Shown here: piece after piece, positions 36,129-39,263 of the stretch
Layout: every line of letters begins with the position of its first letter
Numbering within the stretch: position 1 is the stretch's first letter
From: Sulfolobales archaeon Acd1
GTDB lineage: Archaea; Thermoproteota; Thermoprotei_A; Sulfolobales; Sulfolobaceae
DNA length: 64,000 bases
Direction: 5' to 3'
Assembly: GCA_000389735.1 (NCBI GenBank)
Contig: APJY01000002.1
Location: forward strand, 248,001-312,000
Translations under genes and position numbers: made by a program
Notes under the pieces: generated by a model
Databases searched by the model: none
Seen by the model: the letters and a program-made list of their open reading frames with translations, nothing else
What the model was told of the DNA's origin: nothing

Positions 36129-37205
36129 CTACTTAACTCTGATTTCAACGACGTCCTTATCCTCCAGGACGTGATCCATGCCGACTTTCTCCCCTGGATA
36201 ATTGACGCTCTTTCCCCAGACTCTGGCGTACTTAAAGTTCTCAGCCAGCTCGTTGTGCAATTTCCTAGCCACATCTAGAACGGTGGAGCCTCGTTTCAGT
36301 ATGAGGGGCTCGCTGGAGGGCTTCTCCCCCGGCTCCTTTGTGTAGACTCTTATCACGTCCAGCGCCCTGAAGCATTCTCCCTTTATTCTCTCCAGTTGCT
36401 CAGGCTTTATGGAAGGAACTCCGTTGAACTCGAAATCCTCCAGGCTAACTATTATCGGCGTTCTGTAGACTACTGACTCGAATATCGATTTCTCGACGTC
36501 GTCCAAAGTAACCTCGCCGTAGATCTTAACGGTCCCCGACTTAATCCCGTAGCTTTTCAGGAACTCCCTGAGCTCTCTTTCGTCGCTTCCTATTAGTTTC
36601 CCCATTATCACCAGGTTCAAAGTCGAACCGTACCTGTTCTTCTCGATCACGACCCGACCTTTAGGCTTCCTGAGGAGGACGTTATTACTCTCAAACAACT
36701 CTACCAATTTCTGGAACTCCTCCTTAGTTCTGACAGCGAACAGTATGGCGTCGGCGTTCCTAGCTAACGCTATTAGCCTCGTACTCCAAGTCTTTGACTC
36801 GAGGCTGAAGGGCGGAGGGTTAACGAGCTGTATCGGGACGTCCTCGTAATACATCATCCCTGGCACCGGTGCGGTTTCAGGCTCCTGGGTGACCCCGGTG
36901 AGCTTAACCATGAGCTCTCGTCTAAGCTCGTAATCCCCCACTAGTAGGACTTGCCCCGCACCCTCCTTCTCTATTATGAACTGCTGGCCCCTTCCAGCAG
37001 CCCTCGACTTCCTCTTTTGTAATTCCGCCTCCTCCTTCAGCTCGGCCAGCCTTCTCTTGGCCCAGTAAACCAAGTTCTCTGTGCCCTTGTGCTTAGGTAC
37101 GGCGCTCAGGAACTCCTCCAAGGCCTTAATCTTATCCTCAGTCGTCTTGGCCTCCATGTATTTCAGCCACTTGGCCTTGGCCTCCGCAGGAAGGTTAGTA
37201 ACCAA
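36129..37205 (-). CDS. TGS-domain protein with a degenerate DRG-type GTPase domain
   Basis: A 358-residue relative of the DRG GTPases. Region 1-75 is a helical segment with a basic end; region 84-290 corresponds to the G domain; residues 295-358 form the TGS domain (ILKRGSTVLDVARKLH and VGMDHVLEDKDVVEIRV). The P-loop GxxxxGKS is replaced by GDYELRRE at residues 90-97, and the DxPG of G3 by Asn-Pro-Pro-Pro at 129-132. Nucleotide binding by the usual mechanism is therefore unlikely. DRG and TGS proteins bind ribosomes or RNA; that role may persist. It starts seven bases after rnhB. Confidence 0.83.
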   Translation of the reverse strand: MVTNLPAEAKAKWLKYMEAKTTEDKIKALEEFLSAVPKHKGTENLVYWAKRRLAELKEEAELQKRKSRAAGRGQQFIIEKEGAGQVLLVGDYELRRELMVKLTGVTQEPETAPVPGMMYYEDVPIQLVNPPPFSLESKTWSTRLIALARNADAILFAVRTKEEFQKLVELFESNNVLLRKPKGRVVIEKNRYGSTLNLVIMGKLIGSDERELREFLKSYGIKSGTVKIYGEVTLDDVEKSIFESVVYRTPIIVSLEDFEFNGVPSIKPEQLERIKGECFRALDVIRVYTKEPGEKPSSEPLILKRGSTVLDVARKLHNELAENFKYARVWGKSVNYPGEKVGMDHVLEDKDVVEIRVK

Positions 37206-37211
37206 GTAGTT

Positions 37212-37844
37212 TCACCTTTTCTTCCTGAACTCGGAAGGGGCCAGGTCCTTCAGGGATTTCCAGGATTTCCTTACTATGGGGGGCAAATAACCGTTAAGCC
37301 TATAATATTCGACAACCCAACTCTTGGTCCTTTCGTCAGAAGGGTAGCCGGAGCCGAAGTCGCCGTAAGAGGCCTTTAACCCCTCTACGATCGAGTCCCT
37401 CAGAACCTTGGCCACTATGCTGGCCGCGCCGACGGAGACGTACTTCGAGTCGGCCTTCTCTTCGATCACTACCTCCTTTATGCCTAACCAATACCTGAAG
37501 TACGTGACTAGGGGAGAGGACTCCCCCACCTTGTCTATGAAGATCGACTCCACCGCGTTAAGCCTGGCCAGTCCGGAGACCATGCTCTCTAAAGCCTGGT
37601 AAGTCAGGGAGTTCAGGTTATAACGATCGAGGACTTCGGGTGGTATGAAAGTCACCGCCGAGGCCTCGGCCAACTCCAAGATCTGGGGGAAGAGCTCCGC
37701 CCTCTTGTTAGGGGTGAGCTGTTTGCTGTCCTTGACGCCTAGCTCCTCAAGCGTTTTCAAAACGTCTATCCTGAAGCCGACGCAGGCTATCACGAGAGGG
37801 CCAATTAGTGGGCCCCTACCTGCCTCGTCGCAGCCCACGATCAT
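37212..37844 (-). CDS. rnhB: Ribonuclease HII
   Basis: Cuts the RNA strand of RNA-DNA hybrids and single ribonucleotides in DNA. The 210-residue protein has the first acidic pair in GCDEAGRGPLIGPLV (Asp6 and Glu7), the SKQLTPNKR motif near residue 40, a mid-chain Asp in IFIDKVGES (near residue 99) and a late Asp in the FGSGYPSDERT motif. The stop is seven bases before the TGS gene. The start overlaps the Nmd3 gene by four bases (ATGA). Confidence 0.95.
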   Translation of the reverse strand: MIVGCDEAGRGPLIGPLVIACVGFRIDVLKTLEELGVKDSKQLTPNKRAELFPQILELAEASAVTFIPPEVLDRYNLNSLTYQALESMVSGLARLNAVESIFIDKVGESSPLVTYFRYWLGIKEVVIEEKADSKYVSVGAASIVAKVLRDSIVEGLKASYGDFGSGYPSDERTKSWVVEYYRLNGYLPPIVRKSWKSLKDLAPSEFRKKR

Positions 37845-38557
37845 AGCCTGACCGAAATCACCAGTTTCGCCATTCTCTTCCCGTCCTTGACCTTTTCCGA
37901 CTCGAACGTTTCCTTTACCTCAGCCCCGCTGTAGTGCGCCAGGAAGCTCGCTATGAGGTTTTTCGCAGCGCTCTTCGAGGCGAAGTAGTAGTCCACACCT
38001 TCCTTGCCCTCTATAACGTTGGTCAAGGCCCCCGTGTATTGACCTGTAATGAAGGACTCGAAGAACGCCCTCTTGTCCTCGTCAAGCCTCTTCTCCTTGA
38101 ACCTCAGCTGGACTTTGGCCTCGTAGTAACCTGTCTTCTTGTTCATACACTCGTTGCACAACGTTTTTGATATATCCAGGAGGACGTCTTTCCTCACCTC
38201 GAACCTGTGACCCTCGAGATCTCCCGTAAGCAATATTACTGCGTGCGTCCTGTTGCCCGCGTCCCTCCAGAGCCTCTCCACGGAGATCTCGTAGGTCTTA
38301 ACAAGCCTATCTACAGTCGTTCTGGGTGCGACGAGCTTCCATATGTACTCCCTCAGCGGGTCCTCTGTCTCGGGCTTGATCCACTTGCCGGATATCCACA
38401 TAGACCCGCAGAGCTTACACATCTTGCCCTTAACTTCACTGGGGGTTTCCACGACAAGCCTATGCTTTACGTAACACTCCGCACAAAGTCTCCCGTCAAC
38501 GAGGGGGACGTCAGTTTTACCACAAAGCACGCAGAATTTGCTCGCCATCTCAATCAC
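37841..38557 (-). CDS. Nmd3-like zinc protein
   Basis: A 238-residue archaeal Nmd3 relative. Zinc knuckles come from Cys9/Cys12, Cys25/Cys28, Cys47/Cys50 and a later CNEC pair near residue 130. In eukaryotes Nmd3 binds the large ribosomal subunit and exports it; archaeal forms keep the zinc region and an OB-like core. ATG at 38557 or 38545 (the latter starts MASKFC). It is part of an operon of rnhB, Nmd3, DUF424 and aIF2-beta genes joined by four-base overlaps. Confidence 0.85.
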   Translation of the reverse strand: MIEMASKFCVLCGKTDVPLVDGRLCAECYVKHRLVVETPSEVKGKMCKLCGSMWISGKWIKPETEDPLREYIWKLVAPRTTVDRLVKTYEISVERLWRDAGNRTHAVILLTGDLEGHRFEVRKDVLLDISKTLCNECMNKKTGYYEAKVQLRFKEKRLDEDKRAFFESFITGQYTGALTNVIEGKEGVDYYFASKSAAKNLIASFLAHYSGAEVKETFESEKVKDGKRMAKLVISVRL

Positions 38558-38844
38558 ATGTTGAACATTTGAGCGAACTTCACTCCTTCTACCTCATCGT
38601 AAGCAGCTATTAACCCCTGTTCGAGAGCTTCCTCCACAACGGTGTTACCAATGAGCGTCGCTACGGTGGCCGTTCGCGCCTCGTCCAGAGCCACGTTGAG
38701 GTCGACCTGCTCGCCCGAGTAGAAATCCTCGCTTACGTCCAGAACCTTGTTCCCGCTCCTGTAAACCTTCCCTAACAGGGCTGGCTCAACTACCCCAACT
38801 ATCTTGACGTTCTCGATCCTCCTGACGCTCAGGAGGACTATCAT
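38554..38844 (-). CDS. DUF424 protein
   Basis: A 96-residue archaeal conserved protein. The start at 38844 overlaps the aIF2-beta stop as ATGA; it gives MIVLLSVRRIENVKIV, the usual beginning of the family. Its gene is regularly adjacent to aIF2-beta in archaea, so a role in translation initiation or ribosome biogenesis is inferred. A predicted all-strand and helix mix with the DLNVALDEARTAT segment. Upstream extension to 38895 would overlap more and add residues not expected. Confidence 0.85.
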   Translation of the reverse strand: MIVLLSVRRIENVKIVGVVEPALLGKVYRSGNKVLDVSEDFYSGEQVDLNVALDEARTATVATLIGNTVVEEALEQGLIAAYDEVEGVKFAQMFNM

Positions 38845-39263
38845 ATCGGCTTCACCGGGGTTTGCGCTCCGCAAGCTAGGCAGGAGACGTACCACACCTT
38901 GCCTTCTTTCTTAAGCACGGTGTCGTAAGAGCCGCAGGTGCTACACCTGACGTAAATCTTTAGGAACCGGTCCATGAGCGTGTTAATGGAGGACGAGGAG
39001 AACTTGCCCTGAATCACCAGTTGGCCGCTCTCATTGACTGATCCAGGGGCTCCCAGCTCCTTCAGTAAGTACTTCATGACGAGCCTTTCCTCCCTCCTTA
39101 TCCTGTCACAGTACTCCCTGAAGTTCTTAATGACCGTGTTGGGCCCCACGTTGAAGATCACTAAGTTAGGTATGACCTGGTTACCGACAACCTTAGCTTT
39201 TTGGGGAATTTCCTCGAACGCCCTGTCCAGGAGCTTCAGGTACTCCTCTTCCGTTTGTGCCAC
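38841..39263 (-). CDS. eif2b: Translation initiation factor aIF2 subunit beta
   Basis: A 140-residue beta subunit of the factor that brings initiator Met-tRNA to the small ribosomal subunit. N-terminal helix, central alpha/beta core with NTVIKNFREYCDRIRRE, and a C-terminal zinc ribbon of Cys107, Cys110, Cys128 and Cys131. Starts with GTG. First gene of the four-gene minus-strand operon reaching rnhB and divergent from a tRNA methylthiotransferase gene. Confidence 0.95.
   Translation of the reverse strand: MAQTEEEYLKLLDRAFEEIPQKAKVVGNQVIPNLVIFNVGPNTVIKNFREYCDRIRREERLVMKYLLKELGAPGSVNESGQLVIQGKFSSSSINTLMDRFLKIYVRCSTCGSYDTVLKKEGKVWYVSCLACGAQTPVKPI

Follow-up and report, generated by a model that had tools for sequence, protein, structure and literature searches.

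Introduction

GTPases of the DRG type occur in archaea and eukaryotes and are thought to help stalled ribosomes. In yeast, their contacts with the ribosome have been described domain by domain: the TGS domain touches the small subunit (h5/15), the HTH and G domains touch the stalk base, the sarcin-ricin loop and H89, and the S5D2L domain touches the A-site tRNA (PMC8040806). Rbg1 is inactivated by deletion of either the HTH or the TGS (PMC3510508), GTPase-inactive Rbg1 fails to rescue yeast, and a mutant in the GTPase domain binds ribosomes less well (PMC8629797). Outside this family, a GTPase-like protein of the ribosome system, Tsr1, has been described as mimicking translational GTPases while being inactive itself (PMC4895721).

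For archaea, a review of the DRG family proposes that only one DRG may be present and includes in its tree a Crenarchaeota archaeon; motif loss goes unmentioned in the passages of that review on which we draw (PMC8629797). A search of the open-access literature, which does not amount to proof of novelty, found no report of motif loss in the DRG of Sulfolobaceae, and none of six words sought in the main text of the Sulfolobus islandicus essential-gene paper occurs there (PMC6249222). What appears to be novel here is a DRG orthologue which, as judged from its sequence, fails the motifs that define a GTPase. It is encoded in the window, by which we mean the whole stretch of 64,000 nucleotides analysed from the genome of Sulfolobales archaeon Acd1.

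Results

Domain organization and predicted structure

The DRG-type open reading frame (36129-37205, minus strand, as for all features of this locus given below) begins with TTG and encodes 358 amino acids. Sequence and predicted model together assign to it the architecture HTH, G domain with S5D2L insert, and TGS. The N-terminal HTH (residues 1-66, 37008-37205), whose border was drawn from the predicted model, has the apex PKHKGT. It is followed by a degenerate N-terminal half of the G domain (residues 74-173, 36687-36986) and an S5D2L-like insert (residues 174-240, 36486-36686), both with borders set by us, and the chain ends in the TGS domain (residues 284-358, 36132-36356). In a Pfam scan the TGS domain is intact, as the original prediction had claimed (PF02824, 1.5e-19, residues 285-355), while the insert yields a partial match to PF16897 (MMR_HSR1_Xtn; 2.1e-5, 24.9 bits), under the cut-off of 35.2 for that profile. 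The GTPase domain (PF01926) has no match in the protein at E<=1, and a genome-wide search likewise left it unmatched at the locus. A same-order orthologue subjected to the same kind of scan matches PF16897 (3.6e-19), the TGS profile (3.9e-17) and PF01926 (5.8e-17).

When compared by phmmer with the sequences of solved structures, the protein aligns over nearly its full length with yeast Rbg2 (2.2e-28, residues 24-355) and Rbg1 (2.5e-26, residues 19-356), which confirms the homology to DRG GTPases that had originally been read from sequence patterns. Taken with the lack of a Pfam GTPase match, these alignments establish the protein as a DRG whose G domain has become invisible to profiles. Homology to GTPases, which a profile alignment might have denied, is instead supported by both phmmer and structural comparison, and on the same grounds we rejected a chance resemblance.

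An AlphaFold2 model of the protein (pLDDT 89.4, pTM 0.69) found as its best solved matches by Foldseek Rbg1 (6.6e-22), ribosome-bound Rbg1 and ribosome-bound Rbg2. Over the whole chain, the Foldseek TM-score is at most 0.58 and the rmsd near 13, indicating either a different arrangement of the domains or one that is uncertain. A VIA comparison with Rbg1 gave a Z of 20.6 and an rmsd of 5.6 over 286 aligned residues, in a range that begins at residue 68, such that the HTH is assigned from sequence and model. Compared with Era carrying GDP-AlF4 (7c1o), the model scores a Z of 12.3 over 130 residues, against 19.4 over 163 for the model of a canonical orthologue; in the model of the window protein a helix begins two residues past Gly90, and it lacks the helix and strand by which NKxD is followed in the canonical model. 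The predicted fold is nevertheless DRG-like.

Genomic context and orthology

The gene was originally described as lying beside rnhB and ribosome-related genes, which holds: six bases separate its reading frame from the end of rnhB (RNase HII; 37212-37844; PF01351, 4e-44), beyond which are a homologue of NMD3 (37841-38557; PF04981, 4.2e-42) and aIF2-beta (38841-39263; PF01873, 4.7e-33). A gene for a DUF424 protein (38554-38895; PF04242, 1.2e-12) stands between aIF2-beta and NMD3 and, with longest-ORF starts, overlaps both. Taking the family labelled f1 in our sampling as Sulfolobaceae (31 genomes in 11 genera, that of the window included), we found the order NMD3-rnhB-DRG, with rnhB directly upstream of the DRG gene, to be constant in 31/31 genomes, and aIF2-beta to be located upstream in all six of the longer family loci. 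Among 96 canonical DRG loci, some of which share a genome, rnhB is directly upstream in 39, was not found in 45, has another arrangement in seven and could not be placed in five with too little sequence.

A canonical DRG query recovered this gene as the only full DRG in each of the 31 Sulfolobaceae genomes, with the gene split into two pieces of one frame in the matches of three of them. Remaining matches are partial, with E-values of 7e-8 or weaker, and include a YchF-like gene. We therefore rejected the notion that the window gene is a paralogue residing beside an intact DRG, there being no second full DRG in the 31 genomes at E<=0.001. A single full DRG per genome, shared adjacency to rnhB, and the placement of the family inside its order on a quick tree identify the window gene as the positional orthologue of archaeal DRG, no other DRG having been detected in Sulfolobaceae. 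This revises the original prediction, which had regarded it as an ancient DRG relative; the loss appears instead to fall on the stem of Sulfolobaceae.

Loss of nucleotide-binding motifs within Sulfolobaceae

None of the 31 family members retains the nucleotide-binding motifs G1 to G5. The P-loop signature GK[ST] is present in 0/31 family rows versus 84/84 distinct same-order rows outside the family, and [NTS]KxD in 0/31 versus 82/84. The replacement of GxxxxGKS by GDYELRRE (residues 90-97, 36915-36938), noted in the original prediction, therefore extends to the entire family as far as the loss of GKS is concerned, but amounts to more than substitution and to less than a complete loss: the column reads G-(gap)-DYELRR, with a one-residue deletion on top of the substitutions, and the position of the Walker lysine is still basic in 31/31 rows (Arg in 19 and Lys in 12, in this alignment). 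Similarly, the change from DxPG to NPPP holds for its aspartate, which has become asparagine in 31/31 rows (Asn129 in the remnant LVNPPP, residues 127-132, 36810-36827), while the rest is less distinctive, given that relatives already read DTPP, EAPA and similar, leaving only the asparagine as family-specific; one row of family f35 likewise has Asn.

Two further losses were missing from the original prediction. The stretch from LTN to PGM, comprising switch I, measures 11 residues in 31/31 family members and 17 in 23/23 same-order loci (one of which enters twice), with the site of the six-residue shortening, which also concerns G2, at residues 105-112 (36870-36893). The stretch that holds G4 and G5 is reduced to 33-40 residues, compared with 56-61, and at the corresponding site (residues 254-268, 36402-36446) NKxD, the next helix and strand, and G5 are absent. 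Alignments A2 and A3 cover 68 of 80 loci, the 12 omitted not having been selected by motif. An equal shortening of switch I by six residues throughout the family points to a single event on the family stem, and losses common to 31/31 genomes can be put down neither to chance nor to sequencing error. A sequencing or frameshift artefact was accordingly rejected.

Domain conservation and selection

The HTH and the TGS, both of which touch the ribosome in yeast, are the best-kept parts of the protein in Sulfolobaceae. Between genera of the family, identity averages 81% for the HTH, the most conserved domain, 69% for TGS, 57% for S5D2L, and 50% and 31% for the two G halves. Comparing the family with canonical orthologues, identity in the G halves drops to 34% and 16% (49% and 33% among the canonical proteins themselves), that of the HTH is unchanged (69% versus 70%), and slight decreases are seen for TGS (55% versus 63%) and S5D2L (42% versus 48%). 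Within the G domain, every family member has Q85, G90, T103, D122, Q126, P131 and N150, each of which is also kept in at least 90% of the 84 same-order rows.

Whole-gene dN/dS was 0.01-0.17 in 11 of 14 pairs from the family and undefined in the other three; for the N-terminal G half, defined in 10 of the 14 pairs, it was 0.00-0.15, and for the C-terminal G half a single pair with small counts reached 1.00. The gene has no internal stops in any of the 31 genomes. The low ratios show purifying selection on the window DRG.

Distribution of DRG and of motif loss in sampled Thermoproteota

Our search among relatives gave a match in 60/60 genomes and a DRG in 59, and sampling across the class gave a DRG in 116/117; the miss is in both cases G037, from the same order and with a listed completeness of 99%, where the search found no DRG but a weak, TGS-sized partial match that resembles another GTPase. 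Across the phylum, a DRG was detected at E<=1e-15 in 193/200 genomes, six of the seven misses being without any match at 1e-6 and the seventh being G037. Sequences from outside the class were examined from 80 of 168 genomes.

The motif table comprises 200 distinct rows from 219, following removal of four other GTPases (L276, L278, L279 and L284), a second gene piece (L277), a row truncated where its contig ends (L125) and 13 rows whose cores were identical. GK[ST] is retained in 148 rows, 14 have GRS, with the lysine replaced by arginine, and in 38 the motif is absent: 31 from Sulfolobaceae, three from f20, two from f28, and one each from f47 and f35. DRG-like proteins that have no P-loop are thus also encountered beyond Sulfolobaceae (L270, L271 and L273 in f20; L274 and L275 in f28; L269 in f47; L177 in f35), and for L270 the TGS is the sole Pfam match. 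The GRS proteins are distributed over nine families (e.g. L066, L073, L145, L165). In families f23 and f31 the G3 aspartate has become lysine in 16/16 rows (e.g. VKAPS, VKLPS) with GK[ST] retained. The glycine of DxxG is absent in 163 of the 169 rows outside Sulfolobaceae and present in six, four of them from f17, whose motifs are canonical, suggesting that hydrolysis may have changed before the P-loop was lost.

On a tree built without the motif columns, Sulfolobaceae form one clade (SH-aLRT 99) within their order, adjoining family f6 (support 81), and P-loop loss is best placed, on these sequences, on the Sulfolobaceae stem. The tree was made by a quick method with SH-aLRT support only, from 92 of the 200 rows (11 of the 31 Sulfolobaceae, the seven other losses, the 14 GRS rows and 60 of the 148 GK rows, 20 hand-picked and 40 random), and on it P-loop loss in sampled Thermoproteota requires a minimum of three changes. 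L269 is long-branched and may be grouped falsely with f20 and f28, so this count could shift in either direction.

DRGs are said to be absent from bacteria (PMC8629797). We also observed a DRG-type protein encoded on the Paraburkholderia hospita plasmid pmHSR1_P (NZ_CP024940.1), a bacterial megaplasmid, where its gene closely follows, on the downstream side, one for EF-P (L300:3238-3846); this protein (L300:3905-5020) has TGS (4.1e-14) and PF01926 (2e-10) matches and the motifs GPPGAGKSS, DLPP and NKTD.

Discussion

We consider it fairly probable that the DRG orthologue of Sulfolobaceae is a pseudo-GTPase, converted on the stem of the family, which binds to ribosomes with no GTP switch; the loss of GTP binding and hydrolysis, and ribosome binding of a constitutive kind, are what we infer from the motif losses and the retained domains. 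In such a scheme, as in yeast Rbg1 and Rbg2, a platform of HTH and G domain would sit at the factor site of the large subunit, with S5D2L bracing the A-site tRNA and TGS contacting the small subunit. Once docked, the protein may aid peptide-bond formation on slow or stalled ribosomes, and its release would be governed by competition with elongation factors or by the binding equilibrium rather than by GTP hydrolysis. That a motif-less DRG is tightly conserved as the sole copy detected suggests that this helper can work without a GTP switch. However, the failure of GTPase-inactive Rbg1 in yeast means that loss of the switch could entail loss of the ribosome function, and both the basic residue conserved at the Walker-lysine column and the somewhat lower identity of TGS and S5D2L to canonical rows speak against our reading, as does the apparent lack of any DRG in the same-order genome G037. 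Furthermore, a DFRP partner (PF16543), as known for eukaryotic DRGs, scored over cut-off in 0/41 genomes, a weak test given that 0/14 controls did so; if no such partner exists, recruitment may differ from that in yeast.

The same basic residue could alternatively be a sign of unorthodox nucleotide binding, in which a phosphate or some other ligand is held by the conserved Lys or Arg together with further conserved residues of the G domain. Its retention in every family member and the invariance of several G-domain residues are consistent with such a role, but those residues fit roles in the fold or in ribosome contact equally well. We regard this reading as improbable: the phosphate loop has lost the glycine that precedes the lysine, switch I is shorter, the G3 aspartate is an asparagine, and NKxD with the ensuing helix and strand is missing, in 31/31 by sequence and in the single predicted model. 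Somewhat unlikely in our estimation is a DRG homologue that has left the ribosome to serve as an RNA- or protein-binding scaffold in a different role, such as one alongside RNase HII or NMD3 from its operon. The constancy of the NMD3-rnhB neighbourhood would suit this possibility, as would descriptions of TGS as RNA-binding (PMC1779556) and of the S5D2L fold as typical of RNA- and DNA-binding proteins (PMC8629797). Against it, canonical DRG also adjoins rnhB, and the two most conserved parts, HTH and TGS, are ones that touch the yeast ribosome, with the HTH unshifted between canonical and pseudo members. We hold it very improbable that the gene is a functionless relic in decay: the catalytic motifs are lost and one small-count pair yields a dN/dS of unity in the C-terminal G half, yet the gene is found uninterrupted throughout the family, and the low dN/dS of the whole gene and of the N-terminal G half led us to reject a decaying pseudogene.

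Docking without a GTP switch may extend beyond this family. We tentatively propose, at a little under even chances, that the DRG of Thermoproteota gave up GTP control repeatedly, through loss of the DxxG glycine in nearly all sampled lineages outside f17 and then through loss of the P-loop some three times (in Sulfolobaceae, in f20/f28/f47 and in one f35 member) or replacement of its lysine by arginine, with the ribosome-facing HTH and TGS kept. What DRG chiefly does on the archaeal ribosome would then be to dock independently of nucleotide. As a whole archaeal family in which a motif-less DRG is the only one found, Sulfolobaceae provide a natural experiment in which docking is set apart from GTP switching, and some of their members are genetically tractable. 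A GTP-binding annotation carried over from DRG homologues would need care in this family.

Among known systems, the protein shares its domain order, predicted fold, near-full-length homology and, for archaea, gene position with the DRG GTPases (yeast Rbg1 and Rbg2, human DRG1 and DRG2, and archaeal DRG), from which it differs in having no G1, G2, G3 aspartate, G4 or G5, and in being approximately 30 residues shorter than same-order DRG orthologues. With YchF/OLA1 it has in common an Obg-family G domain and a C-terminal TGS; that protein, however, is without the HTH and S5D2L, which are called unique to DRG (PMC8629797). The YchF-related model PRK09602 was not reached by the window protein (24.4 bits versus a cut-off of 387, over residues 278-355 only, corresponding to the TGS part), and the genome of the window has a separate YchF-like gene (L284) with GKTNVGKS, DVAG and TNKAD. 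Tsr1 belongs to an EF-Tu/SelB-like family, is eukaryotic, acts in subunit assembly and has a solved structure, in all of which it differs from the window protein. Like Tsr1, the window protein combines a GTPase fold, here a predicted one, of the ribosome system with the absence of all guanine-nucleotide motifs, and Tsr1 offers the nearest functional analogy to it.
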